This document shows positions 1-30,403 of a stretch of 30,403 nucleotides of DNA, piece by piece (position 1 is the first letter of the stretch; every line of letters begins with the position of its first letter). This DNA is from a virus. The position numbers were made by a program, and so were the translations under genes. The stretch covers positions 1-30,403 of IMG/VR virus record IMGVR_UViG_3300035250_000054; one strand, given 5' to 3'. A model generated the notes under the pieces. That model was not told where the DNA came from and did no database searches. It worked only from the letters and a program-made list of their open reading frames with translations.

Positions 1-44
1 CGAAAAAGCTGGAAGCCGTCCGAAAAGTGATCGAAAAAATCTGA
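1..44 (+). CDS. int: Integrase, 3' end only (neighbouring element copy)
   Basis: Last 13 complete codons and the TGA stop (42-44) of an integrase gene whose body lies outside the window. The bases are identical to 29838-29881, the end of the complete integrase. Its presence here, directly before an att site, shows that another copy of the element, or the circularised end of the same one, lies to the left. Nothing about the missing catalytic part can be judged. Confidence 0.85.
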   Translation, partial: KKLEAVRKVIEKI

Positions 45-51
45 CAAAAAT

Positions 52-69
52 CTTACAGTTTTCTGTAAG
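52..69. other. Perfect hairpin after integrase stop, left copy
   Basis: CTTACAG-TTTT-CTGTAAG is a perfect 7-bp inverted repeat with a 4-base loop, starting 8 bases after the integrase stop and ending about 23 bases before the tRNA-like att core. No T-run follows, so it is a weak terminator candidate. It may be a site for a recombination accessory protein or an mRNA-stabilising hairpin. It recurs unchanged at 29889-29906. Confidence 0.6.
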
Positions 70-92
70 TCTCGCAATATAAGGAAGAAAAA

Positions 93-139
93 CGGCCTGT
101 CAAGCCGGAGGTCGCGAGTTCAAGTCTCGTCAGTCCCGC
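93..139 (+). other. att site, 3' portion of tRNA-Asp (left copy)
   Basis: The sequence folds as the 3' half of a tRNA: anticodon stem CGGC/GCCG around the loop CTGTCAA (anticodon GTC, Asp, at 99-101), a 5-base variable region, a T arm GCGAG-TTCAAGT-CTCGT, a 3' acceptor strand CAGTCCC and discriminator G138. No 5' half exists; integrase sequence lies upstream. A tRNA 3' end immediately after an integrase gene is the classic attP/attL/attR arrangement. The block 85-139 is identical to 29922-29976, but the bases just outside it differ. Confidence 0.85.
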
Positions 140-144
140 TCTCT

Positions 145-190
145 AAAAAGCCTGTTTGTCGTCGATAAAAAGACGGACGCAGGCTTTTTT
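145..190. terminator. Bidirectional intrinsic terminator, left copy
   Basis: AAAAAGCCTG (145-154) pairs with CAGGCTTTTTT (180-190), and the inner GTCGTC pairs with GACGGAC. The A-run on one side and the T-run on the other make it a plausible rho-independent terminator on both strands. It would end the rightward repressor-integrase transcript and the leftward late transcript, which finishes at 279. Confidence 0.8.
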
Positions 191-240
191 ATTTGTGTTC
201 ATTGTATTGGATAATTTGATGTAATTCGCAAATGTATGCG

Positions 241-262
241 ACAAAATTCGTACAAAATTCGT
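241..262. repeat. Tandem 11-bp direct repeats near att (left copy)
   Basis: ACAAAATTCGT occurs twice head to tail (241-251, 252-262), followed by a partial third copy ACAAAAAG (263-270). The rest of 191-278 is AT-rich, with no ORF. Short direct repeats about 100-150 bases from an att core fit integrase arm-type binding sites, but this is inference. They are fully conserved at 30078-30099. Confidence 0.55.
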
Positions 263-278
263 ACAAAAAGACGGAGGT

Positions 279-1019
279 TTATTGCTCTATAAGATTGATT
301 GAAGTTGAAAAACGCTGATGCGCCACTTCGGTCATATCCAATCCGGAAGCCATCCGGACGAAATAGGTGTTAGTATCATCATTGAACAAAAACGGAACGT
401 CCAATGAAACGATGTCGCGCATGGTAATCAGGTCATCCTTAAAAGATGAAGATATGTTGGACCATGTAAGCGTCCAGCTTTTTTTCGTATCTGCAAGCCG
501 TTGCGCGTATTGTTTGCCGGAATAGGCTTCGTTTATGTTTGTCCTGGCGTTTCTGCTTTCGGCAATGGATGTGTCCGGCCGTGTGTCGAATGTAAGCTGT
601 TTCAAAAACAATGCTTCTCTCATATCACTCATTGCACCGCCCCTTGCATAAAAGAACCAATACTGACTTGAACCAGAGCCGACTGATATTGTTGAAACAT
701 CCCATCCAATCGGTAGCGTTGCTTGCAAATTGATGGTTAGACCTGTCGGGCTACTTCCATCACTCGAGCTTGATCGATAAAAAGAAAATCGGTTCGATTC
801 TGAAGTGCCTGAATAGACCGCAAAAAAGTCCAATGTTTGAGCAGAACCGAAATTGTAACGAACCGCATCATCTGCATCAAAATCCGCACCCAAAGATGTG
901 CTTCCATCCATTAAGCTCTGTTCATTTGGGATAGAATCGGAAGCGGTGAATCCACTCGATTCAGTTCCATCGGCAAGCGTTATATCATCAAATGGAACAG
1001 GCGAATAAGCGAAATACAT
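279..1019 (-). CDS. Tail protein, paralogue 1 (last late gene)
   Basis: A 246-residue protein, the last gene of the leftward late operon. Its function is not recognised from a named family, but its place after tape measure and hub indicates a distal tail or tail-tip component. It is a paralogue of the next gene upstream: both are about 247 residues, share an N-terminal region suggestive of a beta-rich domain (an FGSA or LGSA turn followed by hydrophobic strands), and end in a closely similar C-terminal module, TLTWSN...F...PFLFNDD...GLDMTEVAHQRFSTS here against TLNWTS...F...PVLFYDD...GLNMTEVAFNRYSTS there. The start ATG shares base 1019 with the upstream gene's stop (TAATG-like coupling). A diverged copy of its C-terminal part is at 30116-30403. 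Confidence 0.8.
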   Translation of the reverse strand: MYFAYSPVPFDDITLADGTESSGFTASDSIPNEQSLMDGSTSLGADFDADDAVRYNFGSAQTLDFFAVYSGTSESNRFSFYRSSSSDGSSPTGLTINLQATLPIGWDVSTISVGSGSSQYWFFYARGGAMSDMREALFLKQLTFDTRPDTSIAESRNARTNINEAYSGKQYAQRLADTKKSWTLTWSNISSSFKDDLITMRDIVSLDVPFLFNDDTNTYFVRMASGLDMTEVAHQRFSTSINLIEQ

Positions 1020-1762: not shown

Positions 1763-4005
1763 TATTTTCTGATTTCCACAGCAGTAAAAGAAGCTGCGTC
1801 CGTTGTCTTTTGTGTTTTTGTAATCACGAAGATTTTCCCGGAATAGCTTTCACCGAAAAACTTTGATGTCGGCGCGTCTGAAAATTCCACCACATCGCCG
1901 ATTTCCATTGTCACTGCAAATTTGCCGAATGCTTTTCCTGATACAAGTATCCCGACATCGCCTAAAATGCCGTCATAATATCCGGCCCAATTATCGTTTG
2001 TGTTGTCTGAAGATGGATCGGCAGAGCTTGATACATTCGCCACAAGTGCATCCAGTTTCACTTCCTTTGTATTTTCTTCTGTCTGAATGTTCCAGTCCGT
2101 ACGAGCCGATGAATTCGTGAGTGTTGCCGAAGTCATGTGTCTATCTTCTGCCGGATGCCTTTCGGAATGCAGTTCCCATTTTGTAATTAAACTTGAAAAA
2201 TCTGTATGTGAAATGCTGAGATCGGAAACATCATGCTTCGTTAAGGTGTGATCTGCTGATGTGCCTGACTTATTCGGCAGATACCAATACCGCATCGTTC
2301 CGTCCGGGCGGTACATGAATACAAATGCGCCTTCCTTTTGAAGTTTATTAAGCACATCCCCTAAGTCTTCCGGCTCTAAAAGCCAATACCTTATATTCCA
2401 TCCGCTTCGTGCCGTATCAAGTGCAGACCATCCCGTTATATTTCCATCCGAATCATCAACGCCGGCGTATCTTTTCAGGATGTCCCTGTGTGCTTCCTGA
2501 ATTGTTGTGGCTGCACCGCTTCCGCCTGAGTATGATTTTGAAATTCCATCCATGCCGGAATAAAGGTGTTTGATTTTGGAAATGAAATCCATGCCGGATT
2601 GGATATTGTCATTATCTAAGGCGACTTCTACATCCACAAGACAGCGCACATCCTTTAATTTCATAGATGCAGTTGCTGAAGCACTCGCGCCCGTAGCCAC
2701 AAGTTTCAATTCACCCTCAATTTCAATATCCTGCAATCCTGAGTTTGCTTTATACAGCGTTATCATATCGGCTGATTGATCTGAGCTTTCCGAAAATGTT
2801 CCGCTTGATCCGGATATTGTATTGTTTGTCCTTATTGTATCTGCCGGCGAAGTGCTGCCTGCCTGAGAATAGGAAACATTGTTCCAATTCACCGTCAAAG
2901 CAGCGGCTTCTGCGCCGGTTCTTGTCCAGTCTGCTTCGGTTGTTATTTCCCATTTGATTGACGTTACTTTTCCGTCAATCTGCGGAAGTTTCAATTTTAT
3001 TGTTTCCGTGTCGTAATATGTTCCTGCACCAGTTGTTGTGCCGTCAGTTATTTCAAGCGTTACTGTTGCTTCTGTACTCGTGTCATCTGCCGTTGGCGTA
3101 TCGTAAGCATTCGCCGCGCTTGTCCATCCGCCTGCGTTAGTTGTTGCTTCCGGCTTGAATTTGAATGACCTTCGTATCGTATAATAATTCGTCAGCACAT
3201 TATCGGAATCATAAACTTCTGTATCATTGTCGAATACGGATCCGCTTGTGGATGTAACTGGAAAAAATCTGTCTAAATTTTCATCGTAATAATGCAAACG
3301 TCCGTCCGGCGTTCCGTCTGCTGAATTATCCCTCGGTGCAAGCGACATCATCGTAATATGCTGCACGCGGTCCACCGGCATAGGAAATAATGTTTTCCCT
3401 GTCGAATAGTCCGGCGATGCAGATGTGCTTGTGTTCGGCGTGAATCCGCCGTATGCAACAGGCTTGTATCTTTTGGACGTTGTGGCAGTCGTGTTGGGAA
3501 TGGAAATAAAATCCCAGGGACGCTTTGCCTTTATCGATATATTGATCTTGTCCGCCGTGTGCGACATCTTCTCAATCCTGCCCTGATATATCTGAAGCAC
3601 AACGCCGATTGCATCCCAGTCCCGGTCTTCGTCTTCCCAGTTCGTTGTGAGTGTGTCCCATGTATCGGCAGGCGCGTCTTCCAGATAAAGATATATCTTG
3701 CAGTCCTTATTGATATATTTATTCGTGCCGCCGAAAAGTTCTTCCGAAAAGTCCGCACCGTTATATTTGAAATTCGCAACGGATAAAGATATGTTTGATG
3801 TGGATGCTTTTGATTCGGCAAGATTCATCGCATCCCGGATGGACGGTTTGTTTAAGACCGCCCCGTAATACGGCGTGCCTAAATAGTCGATGTCCTCAAA
3901 CGAAAGCCCGACATAATTCGTGGAATCGTAATATAATTGTATCAGCCATGTCGCTTTGACCGGCCGGTGTAAGGCTTCATCCCAAGTTGATGGAAGTGTC
4001 AGCAT
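1762..4005 (-). CDS. Tail hub / baseplate-like protein
   Basis: A 747-residue protein encoded just after the tape measure gene, where siphoviruses place distal-tail and tail-hub genes. The N-terminal about 170 residues (TWLIQLYYDSTNYVGLSFED..., ...IYQGRIEKMSH...) look like the beta-rich start of hub-type proteins that describe a path of strands and measured segments. A low-complexity Ser/Thr/Asp-rich middle (about 270-430) follows, then a C-terminal region (about 470-745) with aromatic-rich strands. I saw no peptidoglycan hydrolase motif. It is adjacent to the tape measure (shared base 4005) and to the paralogous tail proteins. The hub assignment is positional inference; a receptor-binding role is the main alternative. 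Confidence 0.75.
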   Translation of the reverse strand: MLTLPSTWDEALHRPVKATWLIQLYYDSTNYVGLSFEDIDYLGTPYYGAVLNKPSIRDAMNLAESKASTSNISLSVANFKYNGADFSEELFGGTNKYINKDCKIYLYLEDAPADTWDTLTTNWEDEDRDWDAIGVVLQIYQGRIEKMSHTADKINISIKAKRPWDFISIPNTTATTSKRYKPVAYGGFTPNTSTSASPDYSTGKTLFPMPVDRVQHITMMSLAPRDNSADGTPDGRLHYYDENLDRFFPVTSTSGSVFDNDTEVYDSDNVLTNYYTIRRSFKFKPEATTNAGGWTSAANAYDTPTADDTSTEATVTLEITDGTTTGAGTYYDTETIKLKLPQIDGKVTSIKWEITTEADWTRTGAEAAALTVNWNNVSYSQAGSTSPADTIRTNNTISGSSGTFSESSDQSADMITLYKANSGLQDIEIEGELKLVATGASASATASMKLKDVRCLVDVEVALDNDNIQSGMDFISKIKHLYSGMDGISKSYSGGSGAATTIQEAHRDILKRYAGVDDSDGNITGWSALDTARSGWNIRYWLLEPEDLGDVLNKLQKEGAFVFMYRPDGTMRYWYLPNKSGTSADHTLTKHDVSDLSISHTDFSSLITKWELHSERHPAEDRHMTSATLTNSSARTDWNIQTEENTKEVKLDALVANVSSSADPSSDNTNDNWAGYYDGILGDVGILVSGKAFGKFAVTMEIGDVVEFSDAPTSKFFGESYSGKIFVITKTQKTTDAASFTAVEIRK

Positions 4006-5846
4006 TAAGCAAGGTTGTTTCGCTGTGCTTTTTCAATCGCAGGAATAATGGTATCTATCACAGTGTCATCTACAAGCGGCGCGGAAATGTTTAATGTGAT
4101 GCCGCCCTTCGGTCCGGATATGTTCGGACTGCTCAAAGGTTCGACCTGAACACGCTCGCGTCCGCCGGGATTGTCGCCTACTATAATGGCCTGCGGGCCG
4201 GACGTAACGAAGTCGCCGCCTTGTGCGAAAGAAATACGTTCAATAGCAGATCCCATTGCAGATCCAAAAGCAGCACCGCCGGCAAGTGCCAAAGGTGCGG
4301 TCAGCCATGCTAAAGGACCGGAAGTTTCCAGCATGGATGCAATCCATTTAGAAACTGCCTTCTGAATTTCGGCAGATATGAAAGCTGTTGCTGCCCTTTT
4401 TGCCGCCTCTTCCGCCGCACCTAAAGCATCTGAAGTAGATGTAATTGAAGATGCTGTCAATATGGAAGCCGCAGCCGCCTGATTCAGATTGTCCTGGAAT
4501 AATTCCCATCCCTTATTTGCGTCATCCGTTTCATTATTGACAAGCCCCATCGCTTCGGCAAGTTCAGGATATTGTTCTTTTAACTTTTCTATCCATTCGG
4601 ATTCTTTTTCGCTTTGAGCGACACTTTCACGCTGCTTTTGAACGAATGCGTCGTATTCAGCATTCTCTTCAGATTTTGCACCGATTCTTTCTATAACGCC
4701 ATCCTTGAGTGCTGCGGTATAAATTTTTTCTGCTTCGGCTGCTGTCAATCCCATCTTATTGATTCGCCACGATGCTGCTTTCAAAAAAGCCTGGAATTTT
4801 TCCGATCCTTTTGTGCCTTCCTCAAACATTGATTCCAATTCTTTTTTCGTGGACTTAACTTTTTCCCTTTGTTCGGCATCATCAAGCTGAAGGAAACTTC
4901 GTTCGCTTAATTCCTTCATTTCATCATTCAATCCTGCAATTTCGCCCTCTGTTGTTGAAAATACACCTGCAAGTTCAAGCATTTTACCAATAGCAAGGCC
5001 AGCACCAACTATTAATGCACCCCATCCCGTTTTCACAAGCGTTGCCTGAAATTGTATTGTTCTAACTTTAGCCAACAATGCCGCGCTGTTATATGCTGCA
5101 AACGCTATCGTAATCCCGGCAACACCGCGCGCGAAATCCTGCATTGTTTTCAAGTTTATTGATTCAGCGATTTCTTTTACAGCGTCAGCAGCCTTAGTAA
5201 TTGCCGGTGCTAATAGTTCACCAATGTCCTCACCGACATCACCAATGGCATTATTCATTTGGTCTATTGATCCAGCCATTGTGTCCACGATAGCCGTTGC
5301 CTGACCGCCGAAAAACTTTGTCATACCTCCGACAATAGAATCAAGCCGTTCTGTGCTTCCAGCCGCACCTTCTGCACTTACACCGTATCTGGCAAGTGCA
5401 TTTGTGCTTGATCCTACCGATTTACCGACAAGATCGGCGGCTTGAACCAAGTCCATTCCCTTTGCCGCCGCCAGATCAAGCGTTGCGATTGTTGCTTTCT
5501 TTAATTGTTCTTCATCCTTGATAAACATTGCAAGCATCGCCTGTGCCTGAATGATCGTTTCATCGCCGAAAGTTGTAACTTGCTGAAGTGCGGAAGCCTG
5601 TTCCTGAAGTGCCTTGCTATTTTTTCCCAGAGCCGTTTCTAATTTTTTTACTGCTAAAGTTTGTTCACGTTCTAAAGCAACAACGGATTTAATAGCATTG
5701 ATGATTCCCCTCGCAGCGAAAAATCCGCCGGCTGCCGCCATTGCTGACTTGCCGAGGCTCTTCATTTTATTATCTACGCCGCCGAGGCCTTTTTCCGCTT
5801 TTTTCGCGCCCTTTAGTCGGACATTTAGGTCTATATTTTTAGCCAT
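4005..5846 (-). CDS. Tape measure protein
   Basis: A 613-residue protein with the usual tape-measure layout: a lysine-rich start (LNVRLKGAKKAEKGLGGV), long Ala/Glu/Lys helical stretches, an Ala/Gly-rich hydrophobic segment near 225-285, a second near 495-540 (PLAWLTAPLALAGGAAFGSA), and a Gly/Pro C-terminus. It sits directly downstream of the G/GT chaperone pair, the universal order in long-tailed phages. At about 0.15 nm per residue the length predicts a short tail, near 90 nm, if the family rule holds. The start overlaps the end of the T-frame gene by 8 bases. Confidence 0.9.
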   Translation of the reverse strand: MAKNIDLNVRLKGAKKAEKGLGGVDNKMKSLGKSAMAAAGGFFAARGIINAIKSVVALEREQTLAVKKLETALGKNSKALQEQASALQQVTTFGDETIIQAQAMLAMFIKDEEQLKKATIATLDLAAAKGMDLVQAADLVGKSVGSSTNALARYGVSAEGAAGSTERLDSIVGGMTKFFGGQATAIVDTMAGSIDQMNNAIGDVGEDIGELLAPAITKAADAVKEIAESINLKTMQDFARGVAGITIAFAAYNSAALLAKVRTIQFQATLVKTGWGALIVGAGLAIGKMLELAGVFSTTEGEIAGLNDEMKELSERSFLQLDDAEQREKVKSTKKELESMFEEGTKGSEKFQAFLKAASWRINKMGLTAAEAEKIYTAALKDGVIERIGAKSEENAEYDAFVQKQRESVAQSEKESEWIEKLKEQYPELAEAMGLVNNETDDANKGWELFQDNLNQAAAASILTASSITSTSDALGAAEEAAKRAATAFISAEIQKAVSKWIASMLETSGPLAWLTAPLALAGGAAFGSAMGSAIERISFAQGGDFVTSGPQAIIVGDNPGGRERVQVEPLSSPNISGPKGGITLNISAPLVDDTVIDTIIPAIEKAQRNNLA

Positions 5847-8174: not shown

Positions 8175-9140
8175 TTATCTCCATAATTGCGCCGTCTTTA
8201 TTTCAGCATTCTCAGCCGGCTGGCCGTTTAATTCCACTTCCCATTCGTCTGAAGACGACAGCAAACCGGCAGAAAATCTGACGTATGCGCCCGATCCGAT
8301 ATAATCCCATCCGCCCGTTACGGTTTCCGCGTCTATAATCTTGGAAATCTTGATCCCCGTGTCATCGCGTCCCCATGACGAATATGTAACGGATGAAGCG
8401 GATCCCGCTGCCAATGTTCCGCCTGTCTGAATCTGCACCTTCAGGATGTCCCAATCCGTTGAAGGCGTTCCCTTCCAATCGACAATGCCTGAAGTCGTGC
8501 TGCCGTTTATGCTGACTTCACGCACCTGAACAGCCTGGAATTCCGCTTCATTCCACAAATGATACTGCCCTGCTTTGAGCAAGTCTAAAGTTCCAAGCCC
8601 TGTTTCCGGGTCAATGATTTTCTTTTCAAGTTCATCCGCAAGTTCTGCATTCATCGGGCTAACCAATGCAGCGCATGTGAGCGTCGCATTTGCGTTAATA
8701 ATGAGCCAATCGTAATCCCGTGAGGAAGCTGACTGGGTCCCTACGCCTTTTCGTTTCAGGATCGGACGGCCGACATAACTTCGGATGCGTTCTGCCTGTT
8801 CGTTGTTTATTCGTGTTTTAAGCGTTTCCCAGTCCACACCGGCTTCCATGCGTTCTTCATTCGGATCCGTTGTGAGGTAGAAATAGACCACATCGGCAGC
8901 AGAATCGAAATACCATTCATCTGTCGCGTCCACATCGCCCAATGATGCCTGCGCCGCACCGAGTTCGCGTCCGTTCTTGTAAAGCATAGAAATAAATCCA
9001 GACGAATTCGCCCGGTACACATTCCCGGAATGCGTTTCCCAGTCGGTGATTAAATTCTTTTGATCGTACGCGCCAAGATCAGGAACGATGGCGATCAGGT
9101 CTGTGTTGGTGTTGGAATAACTAACGTCGTATGTACTCAT
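8175..9140 (-). CDS. Head-tail connector region structural protein
   Basis: A 321-residue protein. The first about 100 residues are beta-rich (ANSSGFISMLYKNGRELG, DEWYFDSAADVVYFYLTTDP). Residues about 110-200 are helical (NNEQAERIRSYVGRPIL, NAELADELEKKII) like head-tail adaptor proteins, and the C-terminal 120 are beta-rich, reminiscent of a decoration or lectin-like module. It lies between the lysis cassette and the tail-completion gene, the place for adaptor or connector genes. The exact role is not recognised. The start overlaps the 62-residue gene upstream by 4 bases. Confidence 0.7.
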   Translation of the reverse strand: MSTYDVSYSNTNTDLIAIVPDLGAYDQKNLITDWETHSGNVYRANSSGFISMLYKNGRELGAAQASLGDVDATDEWYFDSAADVVYFYLTTDPNEERMEAGVDWETLKTRINNEQAERIRSYVGRPILKRKGVGTQSASSRDYDWLIINANATLTCAALVSPMNAELADELEKKIIDPETGLGTLDLLKAGQYHLWNEAEFQAVQVREVSINGSTTSGIVDWKGTPSTDWDILKVQIQTGGTLAAGSASSVTYSSWGRDDTGIKISKIIDAETVTGGWDYIGSGAYVRFSAGLLSSSDEWEVELNGQPAENAEIKTAQLWR

Positions 9141-16372: not shown

Positions 16373-16533
16373 GCCTGCCCCTGATGTAAATTTTTATAGA
16401 ATTTCATAAGTGATTTCCTTACAAGTTTGCTCTGCGCCTTCGCCATTTTATTCTGGAATTTCCACGCGGCAATAAGGCCGATAATAAATAACACATTTAA
16501 GGTGATGGATATGCCGAGGATGAATTCTACCAT
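16369..16533 (-). CDS. Small membrane protein, 54 aa
   Basis: One transmembrane segment at residues 3-25 (FILGISITLNVLFIIGLIAA) followed by a strongly basic C-terminal helix (KFQNKMAKAQSKLVRKSLMK). The start overlaps the terminase stop by 7 bases and the stop overlaps the portal ATG as ATGA, so it is embedded in a coupled chain. A membrane protein between terminase and portal is uncommon; it could be a superinfection-exclusion factor or a membrane tether. Function unknown. Confidence 0.68.
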   Translation of the reverse strand: MVEFILGISITLNVLFIIGLIAAWKFQNKMAKAQSKLVRKSLMKFYKNLHQGQA

Positions 16534-17732
16534 GTCTGATAGCCCACCTTTCTTTCGCGGATCGGAAACAGCCAGAACACCGCGTAACCTATTGCGTCCG
16601 AGGCGTGCGTCTGTTCGAGGTCGCGCTTGTCGATGTCGTTGTTCCGCCAGACGTTCTGCTCAAAGTCCATCAATAGATTCGGCGCGTTTTCAATCGTCAA
16701 TCTGCGTTCCTTTAGAAGTTTATTCACCGCATTCACCCTGTCCCTGACGTGCGGATTGGACTTCGGTGACAACACCTTGAAGCCGTGCTGCCGTAAAATG
16801 TCGTGATCGCTTAATGATGCGGATGTTTTTCGTGCGGATCCTGTTGCGTCCGGGTAGATGTTGATGCCGGGATATTTCTTCTGGACCGCTTCGGCCATGT
16901 CGTATGTGCCTGAGTTCTTCATTCTGAATTCATCGAAGACGTGCATTTCGTTCTTATTTGATGCGAAGATCAAACATGACATAGCATCCACGTTGAAGTC
17001 CATCGCCCCGGATATGGTCCATCCTTCAAGTTCCCTGTGTAAAACGTGAATGTCGCGGTCGAATTCTTTATACACCCGGCCCTGAGTCAGATTGACAAAT
17101 TTTCCGTGTAAGTAAGCGTCGATCTGTTCCGGCGTGTATGCGCTTGTCAAATTTTCTTTATACTCGTCAGGAAGATGCGGATTGTCCAATGTGGAAGCGC
17201 GGACAGTTCCGATGTCTATCTTCTCTGAGTTTGTTAATTGAAAGCCCCAGTTTAATTGTTCCGGCGTTCCTGTTAAGAATATCTCACGCTGTTCTGCGTC
17301 CGGATGGCGTACCCTTGCAAGCATTTGATCGAATACATCGCGCTTCTGAATAAACGGCTCATCGATACCGCTCCAGCTCAAATTTGGTCCGCGAAGTGAG
17401 TCCGGCTTGTCGCCCGATCCGATCCATATGCGTCCGTTCCAATTTGAAATGATGAATTCACCCTTCAGTTGGTTGTAGGTATAATTCATGCCGGCTTTAT
17501 CCATGATCTCTTTCAGCGTGATAATGATCGTCTTCTGACCCAAGTTGTGCGAAGGTGAAACGTACATTCCGGGCTGCGGTGCGTTTAGGTAAGACAGATA
17601 CAGGCTTCTCAGCGCGCCGATGTACGTCTTGCCCGATCCGTAGCCGCCCACCATCAGCTTGACGAAGTTCGGAAGATCCCACCACCGCCTCTGATGCGGA
17701 AGCATGTTTTCTTTTAGGATTCGGAATTTCAC
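16527..17732 (-). CDS. terL: Terminase large subunit
   Basis: A 401-residue packaging motor. Walker A is GGYGSGKT (29-36); Walker B ends with the catalytic glutamate in LSWSGIDEP (118-126); the coupling motif is LTGTPEQ (153-159). The C-terminal RNase-H-like nuclease has acidic residues at D245 (AMDFNVD), D295 (IYPDATG) and D379 (HASDAIGYAV). Together with the small subunit and portal it would cut and package concatemeric DNA. At 401 residues it is at the short end of the family but all core motifs are present. It overlaps the small subunit gene by 4 bases. Confidence 0.95.
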   Translation of the reverse strand: MKFRILKENMLPHQRRWWDLPNFVKLMVGGYGSGKTYIGALRSLYLSYLNAPQPGMYVSPSHNLGQKTIIITLKEIMDKAGMNYTYNQLKGEFIISNWNGRIWIGSGDKPDSLRGPNLSWSGIDEPFIQKRDVFDQMLARVRHPDAEQREIFLTGTPEQLNWGFQLTNSEKIDIGTVRASTLDNPHLPDEYKENLTSAYTPEQIDAYLHGKFVNLTQGRVYKEFDRDIHVLHRELEGWTISGAMDFNVDAMSCLIFASNKNEMHVFDEFRMKNSGTYDMAEAVQKKYPGINIYPDATGSARKTSASLSDHDILRQHGFKVLSPKSNPHVRDRVNAVNKLLKERRLTIENAPNLLMDFEQNVWRNNDIDKRDLEQTHASDAIGYAVFWLFPIRERKVGYQTW

Positions 17733-18031
17733 TCAACGATGACTTCATCCTTTGTAATCTTTTGTTCAACGAATTCCTTCGGCTTGCCTTCTGTTCTGTC
17801 TGCAATAAACTGAACCGCCCAGGCACGGCCTTCTAAAGCGTATCCGAATACTTTGCTCATTACCACTTCCAGCTTGTTCTTGCTGCCGTCCTTCAATCCT
17901 TCTTCCTCACCGATCCTTCTTAATAAGTCTGGAATGGACTGTGATCCCTTTGGTCTGCCGTTTGGATTGCCGGATACACCCGGTTTGAATTGTCCGTTGG
18001 CTTTCCTGTTGTTTCCTGTTTCTTCAGGCAC
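17729..18031 (-). CDS. Terminase small subunit-like (DUF5681 type)
   Basis: A 100-residue protein with the NGQFKPGVSGNPNGRPKGS motif (about 13-31) of DUF5681 proteins, which commonly precede terL, and a helical remainder ending FVEQKITKDEVIVE. The GTG start overlaps the methyltransferase stop by 8 bases. A DNA-recognition role in packaging is the likely function, although DUF5681 proteins are not all proven terminases. Confidence 0.78.
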   Translation of the reverse strand: MPEETGNNRKANGQFKPGVSGNPNGRPKGSQSIPDLLRRIGEEEGLKDGSKNKLEVVMSKVFGYALEGRAWAVQFIADRTEGKPKEFVEQKITKDEVIVE

Positions 18032-19289
18032 TTGCAGCCTCGAATCTTTCCGCCTTGTTTCCTGTATAATCTTCCCATCGTTTTACAATTACATCGCAAT
18101 AGTGTTCATCTATTTCCATGCCGTAACATTTACGATTGGTCTTTTCACAGGCTATGAGCGTTGAGCCAGAGCCGAGAAATAAATCGAGAATTAAATCACC
18201 CTCTTTTGATGAGTTTTCAGTTGCTCTTAATACTATTTCGACAGGCTTCATTGTTGGGTGGAGCTTGTTTGCGACAGGTTTATTCTCAAGCCATAAAGTT
18301 GATTGGCTCTTGTCCCCATACCAATTATCCGACTTCCCCTTGATATGGCAATAAAAAATAGGTTCGTGTTGAAACTTGTATCTTCCAAACCCCCATGCGA
18401 AGGTGTTTTTACCCCATACGATTTGATTCCTAACCTCAATGTCATAATCGTTTAACACTTGCTCTGTTACCATCTGCCAAGACGAAGCATGACATATATA
18501 AAATGATCCCCCCCCCTTAACAAATTTTTTATAATTTCCAAACACTTCGGATAAAAACTTCACATACTCATCTTCAGACATAGCATCATTCTTAATTGTC
18601 ATTTTTTCATTCGTTCCACCTTCATAATCGACATTATAAGGCGGATCAGTAAACACCATATCAGCCTTCTGTCCATCCATCAATCGTTCAACATCTTCCT
18701 TCTTGGTTGCATCCCCGCACAATAAACGATGCTCTCCCAATAGCCATAAATCACCAGTCTTGGTAACGGCTTCTTCTACTTCGGGAATTTCGTCATCGTC
18801 AATCAGTCCTTCGGTGGGTTCATCTTCGTAGAATTGCAGTTCATCATCGGTAAATCCCCACTCAGTCAGTTCGCCCACATCAAAGTAATTCGCTAAAGCA
18901 TCGAAGTCCCATTCACCGACGTTTTTATTTAGGCGGATGTTCAATTCTTTTTCCTTGTCCGGATTCAGATCCACCTCTACACAGGGAATATCCTTCAATC
19001 CCAAATCTCGCGCTACTCTCAGCCTTTGATGTCCGCCGACCAGAATGTTTTTTCTGTCTTTATGTGTATTCACAATTAACGGATCAACAATTCCGAACCG
19101 GGACATTGAATCCTTCAAATTATGATATTGCTCTTTTGTTAGCTGACGCGGATTGTATTCTGCTTCAATCAATTTGCCGATCGGATAATAAACTGTTTTC
19201 ATTTTGCCTGTTTTTTTATAGGACAATTCCCCGTTTTTGAAATTCCTGACGTATTTATTTCGGGCCGTGTCGGCCATAGTCTGTGTCAT
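18024..19289 (-). CDS. ParB-domain DNA methyltransferase (late region)
   Basis: A 421-residue two-domain protein. Residues about 30-130 are a ParB/sulfiredoxin-like domain (YNPRQLTKEQY; GGHQRLRVA, 85-93). Residues 180-410 are an N6-adenine/N4-cytosine methyltransferase with motif IV DPPY (215-218) before motif I DLFLGSGSTL (369-378), the beta-class order. It uses S-adenosylmethionine; DPPY fits adenine or N4-cytosine, and the target sequence is unknown. The ATG at 19289 follows AAAGGATTCC, a good ribosome site, and overlaps the FmdB gene. The end overlaps the terminase small subunit, so it is expressed with packaging genes. A 9-base G tract in the catalytic region could switch the frame. Confidence 0.93.
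   Translation of the reverse strand: MTQTMADTARNKYVRNFKNGELSYKKTGKMKTVYYPIGKLIEAEYNPRQLTKEQYHNLKDSMSRFGIVDPLIVNTHKDRKNILVGGHQRLRVARDLGLKDIPCVEVDLNPDKEKELNIRLNKNVGEWDFDALANYFDVGELTEWGFTDDELQFYEDEPTEGLIDDDEIPEVEEAVTKTGDLWLLGEHRLLCGDATKKEDVERLMDGQKADMVFTDPPYNVDYEGGTNEKMTIKNDAMSEDEYVKFLSEVFGNYKKFVKGGGSFYICHASSWQMVTEQVLNDYDIEVRNQIVWGKNTFAWGFGRYKFQHEPIFYCHIKGKSDNWYGDKSQSTLWLENKPVANKLHPTMKPVEIVLRATENSSKEGDLILDLFLGSGSTLIACEKTNRKCYGMEIDEHYCDVIVKRWEDYTGNKAERFEAASA
18508..18516 (-). repeat. G9 homopolymer in methyltransferase coding strand
   Basis: Nine consecutive C on the plus strand read as G9 in the gene, encoding K-G-G-G-S near residue 258-262. Runs of 8 or more G within methyltransferase genes are known slipped-strand phase-variation sites. 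Here the frame is open. Confidence 0.7.
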
Positions 19290-19967: not shown

Positions 19968-20127
19968 CCAAAGCCCTTTTCGCTCTGTCGCCTTTGTCCA
20001 GGCTGATCTTTCTGCGGTCTATTTCAGCGTCTATTTCGTAATGCTTTCTGTTGGCGTAGAATTCAAGAGCGTCGCGCAGCTTCTTGTTCAGAAGCAAAAG
20101 TTCCTGGCATTGTTTACAGTTGATCAA
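19957..20127 (-). CDS. Small CxxC protein, 56 aa (TTG start)
   Basis: Encodes INCKQCQELLLLNKKLRD and ends DKGDRAKRALDAE. The start TTG (20125-20127) follows AGGGGATAGG, an adequate ribosome site, and begins inside the end of the cytosine methyltransferase gene. The pattern of an N-terminal CxxC, a helix, and a C-terminal DxGxRAxxAL is common in uncharacterised phage proteins. Probably a small zinc-linked or dimeric helical protein. Confidence 0.62.
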   Translation of the reverse strand: MINCKQCQELLLLNKKLRDALEFYANRKHYEIDAEIDRRKISLDKGDRAKRALDAE

Positions 20128-21298
20128 TTAACCTATCCCCTACAGCCTCAACCACAGGCACACTTACCGCGTTACCAAGTTGCTTGTATCTTTGCGCGTC
20201 AGATTGCCCTTCTGTCCATCCATCCGGAAATCCTTGCAGCCGTTCACATTCTGTTGGCGTTAGTCTGCGAATAGCTGATTTATTTTGAATAAAACCACCT
20301 TTTTTAGCTGCATTTATTGTTGGACTCAAACCATTCTCGCTATAAACACGCCTTGACGATTCAAATTCAACCTCTTTTTCGTAGATGCTTGTCACTTCTT
20401 CATCATAAGTATCGTCAAATTGTAATAATACTTTGAGTTTTACCCATATTTCCGGACTTGGGACTGCCCTGTATTTATCGCTACGAAAATAGTGTTCTAT
20501 TTGGGTTTTGGGCAGTTGAAGACTCTCTGCAATTTCTCGAATGGTTTTATTGCCCTTATTTTCTTTTAAATATTCATTGATTTCTTCAGGTGTATCGAAT
20601 GCCCTTTTTTTTGCTATAATTTTCAAATCACCTATTTTTATCAACGGAATATGTCCACCCCCTTGTGAAGTGTTTAGGGTTGATGAATATCCATTGTAAA
20701 ATCTCAATCTTTTTTCTTTTCTCCTCATTGATTCATCAATAAATATGGCCTCAGTTGATTGGTTTGTTTCTCCGATAGGAAATATTTCATCTCCACTTCC
20801 TTCTCCAAAACATCCGACAAGATATATTCGCTCTCTATTTTGGGGTAAAAACCAGCGTGTATTAAGCAGTTGCCATTCAAGTCGATAGCCCCCAATGTCG
20901 GTAAAGGCTTTGATAATTGCCCAAAAGTCTCTGCCATCGTTGCTGCTGAATGTTCCTTTAACATTTTCCCAGATAAAAAAATGTGGTTTGCAGTCAGTGA
21001 TGAGTCTAATTGCTTCCCCAATAAGGGATGATCTGTTTCCGCCAAGTCCAGCCCGCTTCCCTGCGATGCTAAAATCTTGACAAGGTGAGCCGAAAGTGAT
21101 AATGTCGATTTTTGGTAAATCTTCGTGTCGAATAGCTCTAACATCGCCTAAATCCACCGCATCGGGAAAATTCTTTTTGTATGTTGCTTTTGCATATTTG
21201 TCAATTTCACTAAATCCAACCCAATCAAACTCAAACCCTGCCTGTTCCAGCCCAAGATGGAATCCGCCTATGCCTGAGAATAGGTCGAGCATTTTCAT
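20114..21298 (-). CDS. C5-cytosine DNA methyltransferase with inserted HTH
   Basis: A 394-residue C5 methyltransferase. Motif I is DLFSGIGGFHLGL (5-17), the catalytic Pro-Cys is in GSPCQDFS (70-77, C73), then ENVKG (111-115), QNRERIYLVG (153-162), the RLTPTECERLQGFPDG motif (345-360), and GNAVSVPV (375-382). The target-recognition stretch (about 175-340) contains two similar motifs, SSTLNTSQGGGHI near 205-217 and SPTINAAKKGGFI near 325-337, on either side of an insert with a helix-turn-helix look (TIREIAESLQLPKTQIEHYF). This suggests a duplicated target-recognition module and possibly more than one target. The gene is AT-richer than the structural genes. It likely protects the phage against restriction. 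Confidence 0.93.
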   Translation of the reverse strand: MKMLDLFSGIGGFHLGLEQAGFEFDWVGFSEIDKYAKATYKKNFPDAVDLGDVRAIRHEDLPKIDIITFGSPCQDFSIAGKRAGLGGNRSSLIGEAIRLITDCKPHFFIWENVKGTFSSNDGRDFWAIIKAFTDIGGYRLEWQLLNTRWFLPQNRERIYLVGCFGEGSGDEIFPIGETNQSTEAIFIDESMRRKEKRLRFYNGYSSTLNTSQGGGHIPLIKIGDLKIIAKKRAFDTPEEINEYLKENKGNKTIREIAESLQLPKTQIEHYFRSDKYRAVPSPEIWVKLKVLLQFDDTYDEEVTSIYEKEVEFESSRRVYSENGLSPTINAAKKGGFIQNKSAIRRLTPTECERLQGFPDGWTEGQSDAQRYKQLGNAVSVPVVEAVGDRLIDQL

Positions 21299-22686: not shown

Positions 22687-23120
22687 GGTTGTTCCTTTGG
22701 TGTGTGAGTTATGTGCAGATCGTTGTTCCATTCTATAAATTTTGCATGAAATTCATCATATCTCATGCCACCCCTGATAGTTGTGAAATTGTTAAAAGAC
22801 CCTCCACACCCTTTTTTTTCACCATCGCAATCTATCTTGCGAAACCAGTTTGCTTTTTTCCCTTTTGAATTTTGTCTTGTATTTAATCTATCTTCATAGA
22901 CAAATACTATTTTATATCCGAGATCGCTCACATCGCTATATTCAACCCATGATTCCCATTCTATATTTCTGGACGCTTTATATTCAATTAAAATTGGTTC
23001 ACACCAACTTGTCCAGAATATTTTATCAGTAACATGGCTAAATTTTGATAATTCATGCAAATCGTCATAAAATTGGTTTTCAAATCGAACGCCAACATTC
23101 AGTCTGCTTTCAAAATCCAC
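22683..23120 (-). CDS. Possible PD-(D/E)XK nuclease, 145 aa
   Basis: I do not recognise a family by name. The layout fits a small PD-(D/E)XK nuclease: a helix with E14 (RFENQFYDDL), D32 in the TDKIFW strand, then ILIEYKAS with E46-x-K48, followed by a strand (YKIVFVYED). A CxxxxxxC pair occurs near 98-105. It follows a ParB-type methyltransferase with a one-base overlap (23120) and overlaps the exonuclease start by 4 bases. Candidate restriction or Holliday-junction-type nuclease; the assignment is inference from a short motif. The gene is AT-richer than its neighbours, like the methyltransferase upstream. Confidence 0.5.
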   Translation of the reverse strand: MDFESRLNVGVRFENQFYDDLHELSKFSHVTDKIFWTSWCEPILIEYKASRNIEWESWVEYSDVSDLGYKIVFVYEDRLNTRQNSKGKKANWFRKIDCDGEKKGCGGSFNNFTTIRGGMRYDEFHAKFIEWNNDLHITHTPKEQP

Positions 23121-24337
23121 TAATCTGCGATCCTGTTTTTTGTCATTTTAATAGAATCAAAATCAATATCTGAACCGATGAAATAACATTCATTGTTCAA
23201 TGCTGCCAGTCCGGTTGTACCACCACCACAGAATGGGTCAAATATTTTATGTCCTGGTTTACAGAATGCTTTTACTATATCTGAGAAAGCATCATAATTT
23301 TGCCCCCAATAATGTTTTGTTTTATCATCTCCTGTGGATTTAAATACATCATTTCCGATATATGAATTATTTGATTCTCCTTTTGTAAACCATAAAAGAG
23401 GCTTCCATCCAGTTGCCAATTTTCTGGCATGAATATTGTTATGACCACCAAGCACTAATTCACAACATACCCAGTGATATTTTAAATACATTGATAATCT
23501 CTCAAATATTTCTGGTAAATAAATATGACCTGACAAAGCCAAACATGATCCGCCTGGCTTTAATACGATTGATGCAGTTTTTGATAATTCTGAATAAGTA
23601 TCAATAAATTCATACGGATAAGGCGGATCCGTAATAATTACATCAACAGAGTTTGGTCCAAGTATTTCCGCCATTTCTTCGCATGATTTATGATATAACT
23701 CATATCGTTCCGTTTTGTCTGGTAAATCTTCACTAAGCTGTGCAATATCATGTTCACGTTTATATGTAGATGCTTTCCGGTCTAATTGTCTGTGTTCTAA
23801 TGTTCCGCCAGGATTGACAAGTTTCAGATTTTCTGTTGTTTTTTCTTGTTGTCTTTTGTTCTTGATGAATACACTTGTCAATCTTGTTGTCTTTTTAGCT
23901 GGATATTTCTTTCCGTCTTTTCCGGTTACAAAGTCTGGTTGAGTTGGTCCATTTGGACTAACTGATCTTTTTACAGTTGTTACACCAACTCCACTTGCAT
24001 CCGCAATAGACTGATACGTCATTCCGCTTTTCCGCATTTCTTCCCAATGCGGTTTCATTTGTTCTGTAGTTAGATGTCTGCGAAATATATTTAACCGCCG
24101 GACATGATTAAACTTCTCATCTTCACTCATTCCCCCTCGGACCAAACGCGGATAATCTTCGATCTTTATGCCTGCAGATTTTAATTCATTCCAAATTTTT
24201 ATACGGTGATGTCCGTCTAATGTGTTTCCATTTTCGTCTATTTCTACCGGTACAAGTATTCCGTTTTCTGCTATATCTGCCTTTAGTAGCTCAAATTCAT
24301 TCGTACTTAATTCCGGAAATAATTGATATTGGCTCAT
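23120..24337 (-). CDS. ParB-domain DNA methyltransferase (early region)
   Basis: A 405-residue protein. The N-terminal ParB-like domain has DGHHR (41-45) and RRLNIFRRHLT (80-90), then a helix-turn-helix (GMTYQSIADASGVGVTTVKRS, 105-125). The C-terminal methyltransferase has DPPY (237-240) before DPFCGGGTTG (367-376), the beta-class motif order, with the substrate-recognition part between. Product and target are N6-adenine or N4-cytosine in an unknown sequence. It overlaps the NinG-like gene by 4 bases and the nuclease candidate by one. Base composition is visibly AT-rich, unlike the structural genes, suggesting later acquisition. Confidence 0.92.
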   Translation of the reverse strand: MSQYQLFPELSTNEFELLKADIAENGILVPVEIDENGNTLDGHHRIKIWNELKSAGIKIEDYPRLVRGGMSEDEKFNHVRRLNIFRRHLTTEQMKPHWEEMRKSGMTYQSIADASGVGVTTVKRSVSPNGPTQPDFVTGKDGKKYPAKKTTRLTSVFIKNKRQQEKTTENLKLVNPGGTLEHRQLDRKASTYKREHDIAQLSEDLPDKTERYELYHKSCEEMAEILGPNSVDVIITDPPYPYEFIDTYSELSKTASIVLKPGGSCLALSGHIYLPEIFERLSMYLKYHWVCCELVLGGHNNIHARKLATGWKPLLWFTKGESNNSYIGNDVFKSTGDDKTKHYWGQNYDAFSDIVKAFCKPGHKIFDPFCGGGTTGLAALNNECYFIGSDIDFDSIKMTKNRIAD

Positions 24338-28364: not shown

Positions 28365-28949
28365 ATGTCAAGAGAAATTGTAGAAAAAATCATATTAGAG
28401 ATTCGGCATAAGTACGGATTGAAAAACGACGGCGAAGTTGCTGCCAAATTAGGCGTATCTCGGCAAATGCTGCACAATTACAAGGTTGCAGGCCAAATTC
28501 CGCAGAAATATCTTAATCCAATAGGAATTGATATGTCGGATGACAAATTGTCAATGCCGGCGGAAATTGGCAAATTGCCCGTTGTCGGTATCGCACAGGC
28601 AGGACCGGGCATATTTTCAACAGACGGCGATTATCCGCCAGGCGATGCGGATGAATACATTTCGCGTCCGCACGGAATAAAGGACACGCAGGCGTTCGGG
28701 ATCATTGTAAAGGACAGGTCCATGATGCCTGCTTTTCGCAATCAGCAGCGCGTCGTGGTAAGCCCGAATGTTCAGGTGGAAAATTCGGATCGCGTCGTTG
28801 TCGGCTTGAAAGACGGAAAAAGGTTGATCGCCGAATGGCATAAAAAAGACGGACATGTAGAATTGGTAAAATACAATGCGGACAACATCGTGGTTGAATT
28901 TGATGATATTGAATTCGCGTATAAAATTGTCTGGTCGCGTGAGTTATGA
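28365..28949 (+). CDS. CI/LexA-type repressor with S24 peptidase
   Basis: A 194-residue repressor. Residues about 1-50 carry a CI-type helix-turn-helix (EVAAKLGVSRQMLHNYKVAG). The rest is an S24/LexA autopeptidase: predicted cleavage at A79-G80 (VGIAQAGPGIF), catalytic serine S119 in DRSMMPAF, and a lysine in VVGLKDGKRLIAEW (K149 or K152). It should bind the palindromic operator just upstream, block the leftward operon, and be destroyed after DNA damage. It overlaps the integrase gene by 4 bases (ATGA), so both are made together. No ribosome site is seen before its ATG. Confidence 0.9.
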   Translation: MSREIVEKIILEIRHKYGLKNDGEVAAKLGVSRQMLHNYKVAGQIPQKYLNPIGIDMSDDKLSMPAEIGKLPVVGIAQAGPGIFSTDGDYPPGDADEYISRPHGIKDTQAFGIIVKDRSMMPAFRNQQRVVVSPNVQVENSDRVVVGLKDGKRLIAEWHKKDGHVELVKYNADNIVVEFDDIEFAYKIVWSREL

Positions 28950-29881
28950 GTAAACTTGTCAAACGCGGAAAAAAGTATTATTACCGATCCGGCTATGAAT
29001 TCTTTTCCTTAAAAACGGAAGTCAAAAGCCGGGCCGAAGTAATCAAAAAGAAATTAGATGAACAAAAGGAATTGGAACGCTTCGGCATCTTCACGCCTTC
29101 CGATATTTCCGTTAAAGATGCGAAAAACGAATGGATTCAATTTGTGAAATTCGACAAGTCCGATGCCTGGTGGAAGTCGAACACGCACAAAATAGAACGC
29201 TTCGTAAATGAGTTCGGCAGCCGTCCGATCGCTTCCATCCACGCACGCGACATAAACAGCTATATTTCAGCCTTAAAACAAGGCCATGCGCCGAATACGG
29301 TGCTAAACTACATGAAGCCGATCCGCCAGTTGTTCAAATTCGCCGTTTCCTGTGGCTATATCGAACGAAATCCGCTTGAGTCGGCACAGCTACCGAAGGC
29401 CGAGGAAAAACGCCGTTTCGAGGCGATTTCAAAAGACATTCTTTTAGACATATTTAATGATGAAAGCATCGAATTGAAACATCGGCAATTCTGGATGTTA
29501 TGCTATTACACCGGGCTGGATTCGGGCGATGCCGGAACGCTTGAAAAAGTCAAGAACGGGACAATTCAGATCAAGCGTAAAAAGTCAAATGTTCCGGTGC
29601 AGATCCCGAAGCATTCCAAATTGAATTTCGACATTGAAAATATCATGCCTTCCAGGAACAAACGATCGCATTCATCCAAACTTTTGAAAAGAAAATTAGC
29701 GGAACACGGAATTCGCGGATCCATTAAGAATTTGCGCGCTTCGTTCATTTCGCATTTGCACGATGCCGGGCTTTCGGCTCAGGATATTAAGATCGCGGTC
29801 GGCCACACATCCGAAAAGATGACGGCGCATTATACCACGAAAAAGCTGGAAGCCGTCCGAAAAGTGATCGAAAAAATCTGA
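28946..29881 (+). CDS. int: Tyrosine-recombinase integrase
   Basis: A 311-residue tyrosine recombinase. The N-terminal arm region is small and basic; a core-binding domain lies at about 53-150 (VKDAKNEWIQFVKFDKSDAWW...); the catalytic domain runs from about 155. The conserved lysine (RKKSNVPVQIP), second arginine (IKNLRASFISHLHDAGLS), GH (VGHTSEKMTAHYT) and tyrosine Y are present. However, at the box-I arginine position (TGLR in most) there is YTGLDSGDAGTL, and the H of HxLR is replaced by K (KNLR). Function may be intact if the family tolerates this, or altered. It ends 48 bases before the att core and shares a 4-base overlap with the repressor. Confidence 0.9.
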   Translation: MSKLVKRGKKYYYRSGYEFFSLKTEVKSRAEVIKKKLDEQKELERFGIFTPSDISVKDAKNEWIQFVKFDKSDAWWKSNTHKIERFVNEFGSRPIASIHARDINSYISALKQGHAPNTVLNYMKPIRQLFKFAVSCGYIERNPLESAQLPKAEEKRRFEAISKDILLDIFNDESIELKHRQFWMLCYYTGLDSGDAGTLEKVKNGTIQIKRKKSNVPVQIPKHSKLNFDIENIMPSRNKRSHSSKLLKRKLAEHGIRGSIKNLRASFISHLHDAGLSAQDIKIAVGHTSEKMTAHYTTKKLEAVRKVIEKI

Positions 29882-29888
29882 CAAAAAT

Positions 29889-29906
29889 CTTACAGTTTTC
29901 TGTAAG
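29889..29906. other. Perfect hairpin after integrase stop, right copy
   Basis: Same CTTACAG-TTTT-CTGTAAG inverted repeat as at 52-69, with unchanged sequence, between the integrase stop and the att core. Confidence 0.6.
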
Positions 29907-29929
29907 TCTCGCAATATCAATAAGAAAAA

Positions 29930-29976
29930 CGGCCTGTCAAGCCGGAGGTCGCGAGTTCAAGTCTCGTCAGTCCCGC
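29930..29976 (+). other. att site, 3' portion of tRNA-Asp (right copy)
   Basis: Identical in 29922-29976 to 85-139 at the left. Same tRNA-Asp 3' half (anticodon GTC), with the same discriminator G. Immediately outside the identical block the bases differ (CAAT against AAGG on one side, AGTCG against TCTCT on the other). This is the end of the complete element in the window. Confidence 0.85.
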
Positions 29977-29981
29977 AGTCG

Positions 29982-30027
29982 AAAAAGCCTGTTTGTCGTC
30001 GATAAAAAGACGGATGCAGGCTTTTTT
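29982..30027. terminator. Bidirectional intrinsic terminator, right copy
   Basis: Same stem as at 145-190 (AAAAAGCCTG paired with CAGGCTTTTTT), with one substitution in the inner part (GACGGATG for GACGGACG). Ends the repressor-integrase transcript on one strand and the next unit's late transcript on the other. Confidence 0.8.
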
Positions 30028-30077
30028 ATTTGTGTTCATTGTTTTGGATAATTTGATGTAATTCGCAAATGTATGCG

Positions 30078-30099
30078 ACAAAATTCGTACAAAATTCGT
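30078..30099. repeat. Tandem 11-bp direct repeats near att (right copy)
   Basis: Two ACAAAATTCGT repeats and a partial third, unchanged from the left copy, in the AT-rich stretch between the terminator and the tail gene end. Confidence 0.55.
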
Positions 30100-30115
30100 A
30101 CAAAAAGACGGAGGC

Positions 30116-30403
30116 TTATTGCTCTATAAGATTGATAGAAGTCGAAAAACGCTGATGCGCCACTTCGGTCATATCTAATCCTGAAGCCATCCGGACGAAA
30201 TAGGTATTTGAATCATCATTGAATAAAAATGGAACGTCCAATGAAACGATGTCGCGCATGGTAATCAGGTCATCCTTAAAAGATGAAGACATATTGGACC
30301 ATGTAAGCGTCCAGCTTTTTTTCGTGTCTGCAAGCCGTTGCGCGTATTGTTTGCCGGAATAGGCTTCGTTTATGTTTGTCCTGGCGTTTCTGCTTTCGGC
30401 AAT
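30116..30403 (-). CDS. Tail protein, 3' end only (next element copy)
   Basis: C-terminal 95 codons and stop of a second copy of the tail gene at 279-1019; the rest lies beyond the window. It differs from 279-566 at 12 of 288 positions, and only two residues change (T to S in the NDDTNTYF motif and I to M in SNISSSF). The substitutions are mostly synonymous third positions, so this is a diverged functional homologue rather than sequencing error. Confidence 0.85.
   Translation of the reverse strand: MAESRNARTNINEAYSGKQYAQRLADTKKSWTLTWSNMSSSFKDDLITMRDIVSLDVPFLFNDDSNTYFVRMASGLDMTEVAHQRFSTSINLIEQ

Follow-up and report, generated by a model that had tools for sequence, protein, structure and literature searches.

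The stretch of DNA analysed here, referred to as the window, is the whole IMG/VR record IMGVR_UViG_3300035250_000054 (30403 bp), which comes without any flanking contig and carries the end class 'linear', no end repeats having been found by that classification. Its gene content looks like that of a temperate siphophage of ordinary type (Table 1). At each end of the record the same junction is present and reads, from left to right, as the end of the integrase gene, approximately 48 bp of phage DNA, a 47-bp core, a hairpin followed by a T run, and the end of a block of leftward genes which contains the tape measure, endolysin, capsid and terminase genes. The final 44 bp of the integrase gene recur without change at positions 1–44, and the two hairpin copies fold at -20.4 and -22.3 kcal/mol; a comparable hairpin lies at the same place in all four relatives that were folded. 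Neither tRNA genes nor Rfam families were found in the window. Three DNA methyltransferase genes (18024–19289, 20114–21298 and 23120–24337) occur together in this one 30-kb phage (window 18024–24337), of which the first and the third have a ParB-like N-terminal part.

Table 1. Positions of the features in the window and the basis of their assignment.
Feature	Positions	Strand	Basis
Terminal overlap copy 1 (putative strain allele A of the circular junction)	1..566	.	aligns with 29838–30403
Terminal overlap copy 2 (putative strain allele B of the same junction)	29838..30403	.	aligns with 1–566
Predicted attP core copy 1, 47 bp, identical to Marinimicrobia tRNA-Asp from its anticodon arm to its 3' end	93..139	+	exact match in tRNA-Asp(GTC) of 7 Marinimicrobia genomes
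Predicted attP core copy 2, identical 47 bp	29930..29976	+	sequence match
Hairpin then T run just past the core, copy 1 (predicted terminator)	145..191	+	folding energies
Hairpin then T run just past the core, copy 2 (predicted terminator)	29982–30028	+	folding energies
Gene ending the structural block on the tail side, 246 aa, without recognised family; 3' part in both copies	279..1019	-	ORF, family searches
Tape measure protein (siphophage-type tail)	4005..5846	-	PHROG 28, 6e-9
Terminase large subunit (query for finding relatives)	16527..17732	-	PHROG 2 (6e-40), PF03237
Repressor with S24 peptidase domain, overlaps the integrase start	28365..28949	+	PHROG 4, PF00717
Tyrosine integrase, 311 aa	28946..29881	+	PHROG 1 (7e-36), Pfam PF00589

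The predicted attachment site and its host

The core reads CGGCCTGTCAAGCC...CAGTCCCGC (47 bp) and is found exactly in eight public genome contigs. Seven of these belong to Marinimicrobia (SAR406, Neomarinimicrobiota), and in them ARAGORN calls a complete tRNA-Asp(GTC) with the core as its 3' part. The preliminary description had named tRNA-Asp as the attachment site, which is right. As phage DNA flanks the tRNA-Asp 3' part on both sides, the two copies are predicted attP sites, and neither is a boundary between host and phage. An integrase gene adjoining a tRNA 3' part that exactly matches a host tRNA gene is the arrangement of temperate tailed phages which use a tRNA 3' end and a tyrosine recombinase, and the window likewise has its integrase beside attP; in contrast to those phages, its host (Marinimicrobia) and its integration are predicted. 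The integrase would insert the phage at the Marinimicrobia tRNA-Asp gene, whereupon the 47 bp of the phage would restore the tRNA and the hairpin would supply a terminator for the restored gene.

Short direct repeats at 43–68 and 240–267, of the ACAAAATTCGT type to the right of the core and with a similar element to its left, are candidate integrase arm sites; in relatives these core-flanking repeats stay matched to one another, as with ACAAAATTAGGACA in L006. Two clusters of substitutions between the copies (81–84 and 140–144) flank an identical stretch of 55 bp (85–139), and host DNA captured by imprecise excision was considered as their origin and rejected. The 3' flanks of the host gene (AGATA, AGCAA, ACAGA, AACAA and others) match neither junction allele and the core flanks vary freely among relatives, so that conservation of the core alone explains the clusters.

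The exact tRNA match in seven genomes, together with terminases that are 52–57% identical in three Neomarinimicrobiota genomes, compared to 40% for the nearest isolate terminase by protein (Vibrio phage vB_VpaS_KF4), points to Candidatus Marinimicrobia (Neomarinimicrobiota) as the probable host. The integrase is at most approximately 31% identical, over part of its length, to those of isolate phages, and a near-identity search with 24 kb of the window against 50,697 phage records returned nothing. A Marinimicrobia phage is no novelty as such, since a 2015 report described viruses in this phylum from public genome data (PMC4533152).

In two Neomarinimicrobiota genomes a related prophage-like block of ~30 kb (G194:C18, ~60–91 kb; G195:C13, ~1–32 kb) has a tRNA-Ser/Arg/Glu cluster on one side and a tRNA-Gln gene on the other; in the half of the G194 block that was scanned, no repeats of use as attL/attR were found. 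An apparently unrelated larger phage (L138:1230–1430, IMGVR_UViG_3300013115_000236) carries a tRNA-Asp gene of its own, in which 33 bp of the anticodon-arm region are identical to the Marinimicrobia tRNA-Asp, and it may share its host with the window phage. The same 47-bp tRNA-Asp part, without the tRNA 5' half, stands beside a different integrase at L013:650–2106 (PAZC01000001.1), next to a Vsr-like endonuclease, a C5 methyltransferase and a large ATPase-like gene (names given by eye from translations). This region resembles the integrase-bearing end of an island for restriction or defence that sits in tRNA-Asp, and the contig, binned as Opitutia, may be from Marinimicrobia.

Terminal overlaps in the window and its relatives

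The two ends of the window align at an offset of 29837 over 566 bp with 21 substitutions (at 81, 83, 84, 140, 141, 144, 178, 206, 278, 300, 306, 339, 345, 369, 372, 374, 387, 393, 453, 456 and 489), no indels and 96.3% identity, and this overlap is the sole direct repeat of at least 25 bp within the window. The preliminary description had reported this alignment, and re-alignment reproduces it exactly; its count of 12 substitutions in the tail-region gene with two residue changes was confirmed codon by codon (11 codons; I/M and T/S). With most of the coding substitutions silent, each allele has the look of a functional gene, and the differences are, as had been proposed, real divergence and not error; purifying selection has acted on them. 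The extent of this divergence fits the diversity of the phage elsewhere. Three contigs from other metagenomes (L019, L020 and L021) represent the same phage and are 93.3–94.9% identical to the window at the nucleotide level over 3.3–6.2 kb of the terminase–capsid block, reaching 98% in one segment, so that the ~4% at the junction is ordinary strain divergence. The segment with the small terminase and a methyltransferase (window 17729–19289) is a mosaic spot: the putative small terminase protein has a 99% match in L021 and only 45% in L019 and L020, while most neighbouring genes match at 92–99%.

A related integrase (66–75% identical) is present in six IMG/VR contigs, all of which show the order integrase, tRNA-Asp 3' part, hairpin and phage gene, and never a host tRNA or host DNA at this place. 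Further relatives were collected by terminase and by exonuclease matches. Searches of viral contigs with the tail gene at the junction and with the gene at 8175–9140 gave no relatives. In two relatives (L005:1592–2100 and L008:365–870) the attP region is common until just past the ACAAAAT repeats and is followed by wholly different genes, from which the tail-side gene adjoining attP seems to be exchanged as a unit.

Besides the window, eight records of at least 26 kb were read whole and tested for terminal overlaps, namely G250, G252, G254, G255, G260, G261, G262 and the genome contig G193:C20. G250 (IMGVR_UViG_3300003894_000003) carries an exact 100-bp terminal repeat and closes into a circle of 28,387 bp, whose break lies upstream of the small terminase gene and whose int-attP junction is internal. 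In G261 (3300032132_000035) the exact terminal repeat measures 127 bp and the circle 28,429 bp, with the break adjoining the capsid gene. The overlaps of two others are imperfect: 108 bp at a methyltransferase gene in G262 (3300030105_000998), and 715 bp with 59 substitutions, no indels and 91.7% identity in G255 (IMGVR_3300030104_001409), where it sits at the terminase/portal boundary, away from att. No terminal overlap was found in G252, G254, G260 and G193:C20 (26–31 kb). Imperfect overlaps thus occur in three of the nine records tested, the window included, and the five contigs with an overlap break at five different map positions. The four overlapping relatives are marine contigs, ~28 kb round, whose gene order is largely that of the window; the terminases of G250 and G255 are 62–64% identical to that of the window. 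Among the four, only G250 was found with a close relative of the window integrase (67%), and it has the same attP core. They differ from the window in where they break, and the tail-side genes adjoining attP in G250 are different. As the overlap goes with the end of the contig, wherever that lies on the map, it is a property of circular assembly that is independent of the att site.

The pattern of identical runs within the overlaps carries a further signature, which the preliminary description did not mention. In the window the overlap begins with an identical run of 80 bp and ends with one of exactly 77 bp, the longest internal run being 71; in G255 the start run is exactly 77, the end run 90 and the longest internal run 73. 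Shuffling the order of the runs places the two longest ones at both ends with a chance of 0.004 for the window and 0.0005 for G255. In a de Bruijn graph with k=77, the paths of two strains would run apart while no 77-mer is common to both and would rejoin at the first shared one, and both overlaps are bounded by shared words of at least this length with none inside. From the run lengths we infer k=77 and the type of assembler for IMGVR_UViG_3300035250_000054. This model predicts an overlap at 4–566 in the window, compared to the observed 1–566; one end of each contig overshoots the prediction (80 in the window, 90 in G255), perhaps because of a third allele. G262 is without the run signature (leading run 17, last base mismatched), and its imperfect overlap may have another cause.

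A probable over-extended circular contig and its alternatives

Taken together, we consider it highly probable that the window is a complete circular phage genome, 29,837 bp round, and that its contig, built from coexisting strains, overran its own ends. The phage DNA would have been sequenced in a circular or concatemeric, attP-containing form, either as excised or replicating circles or as concatemers packaged in virions, and from mixed strains, a mixture which we infer for the sample of IMGVR_UViG_3300035250_000054. Two strains that differ across the int-attP-tail junction and share 77-bp words on either side would create a bubble in the assembly graph; the contig would have entered one arm of the bubble, circled the shared remainder and left by the other arm, which would give the overlap of 566 bp at 96.3%. 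The imperfect overlap was missed by the end classification of the record. This reading, one of two offered in the preliminary description, is well supported by the run signature, by the overlaps of relatives at other positions and by the strain diversity: the ends overlap in register without indels, and the position of the overlap is arbitrary among the relatives. It also has precedents. According to the CheckV authors, terminal repeats cluster at certain lengths, among them 55, 77 and 99 bp, probably on account of assembler k-mers, and are likely footprints of circular templates (PMC8116208). The 'DTR contigs' of CheckV likewise owe their end repeats to a circular or concatemeric template and have run lengths equal to assembler k-mers, including 77; in contrast to these, the repeat of the window far exceeds k in length and has an identity of only 96.3%, probably owing to the two strain paths, and the record is hence classed as linear. 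The assembler PenguiN detects circular genomes that were over-extended by looking for '(near-)identical terminal repeats' (PMC11443906); there this is a general method, whereas the window is a single record.

The other reading offered was that sibling prophages stand in tandem at tRNA-Asp, with an attP-like site between units and two successive junctions that have diverged. Both copies are indeed complete int-attP-tail junctions with a part of tRNA-Asp, as an array would give, and the same graph could result if three or more units in an array were sequenced with short reads and collapsed. However, two different complete junctions demand at least three units, and the record holds 1.02 units and no host DNA, so that no tRNA 5' half joined to an array is present. 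An array should have its diverged junctions at the att site, whereas the diverged overlap of G255 lies at the terminase gene and the overlaps of the relatives fall at terminase, methyltransferase and capsid positions, none of which is a site of integration. No viral contig was found that joins an exact Marinimicrobia-type tRNA-Asp 5' half to the window phage, the sole viral contig with an exact host-type tRNA-Asp sequence being an unrelated phage which carries its own tRNA genes, and the related terminase is single-copy in each of the three genomes of the phylum. A search of the genome contigs gave no match to the integrase, nor was a relative (E below 1e-25) found in 245 Neomarinimicrobiota genomes, a set that weighs little as it holds one genome per species, many of them probably incomplete; no attL/attR pair was therefore obtained. 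The evidence thus speaks against the array, and because the genome searches are weak a slight chance is left to it. We regard it as very unlikely, and a stable array of at least three sibling prophages at the chromosomal tRNA-Asp of Marinimicrobia, with diverged junctions and the rest collapsed in assembly, as very unlikely indeed.

Direct repeats at both ends of a record would also be seen in a linear virion genome with fixed terminal redundancy, whose 566-bp direct terminal repeats have drifted apart. This is extremely unlikely, as related genomes break at different map positions and thus have no fixed terminus, and the cut at the repeat would fall midway through the int-attP region. Moreover, replication normally keeps terminal repeats identical, with which such drift conflicts. 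It is likewise hardly probable that the contig is a chimera in which two unrelated phage populations were misjoined and the remainder comes from only one. The relatives are mosaic, and in L019 and L020 the small terminase/methyltransferase segment departs from that of the window, with a match of 93–98% elsewhere; the two copies, however, are in perfect register without indels, and the gene order round the circle agrees with that of the exactly closed relatives G250 and G261. A chimera differs from the strain-mixture reading only in how distinct the strains are.

On the over-extended reading, the record is best regarded as the complete genome of a circular phage, 29,837 bp long, for which two alleles of the junction are known. 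It also serves as a caution that complete circular phage genomes can be filed as linear fragments when strains differ where the assembler broke the circle, and a search for imperfect terminal overlaps bounded by identical runs of length k would recover such genomes. What is gained is a complete genome from a group of temperate phages very likely infecting Marinimicrobia, an abundant marine phylum, together with an exact predicted integration site, tRNA-Asp, for this group.
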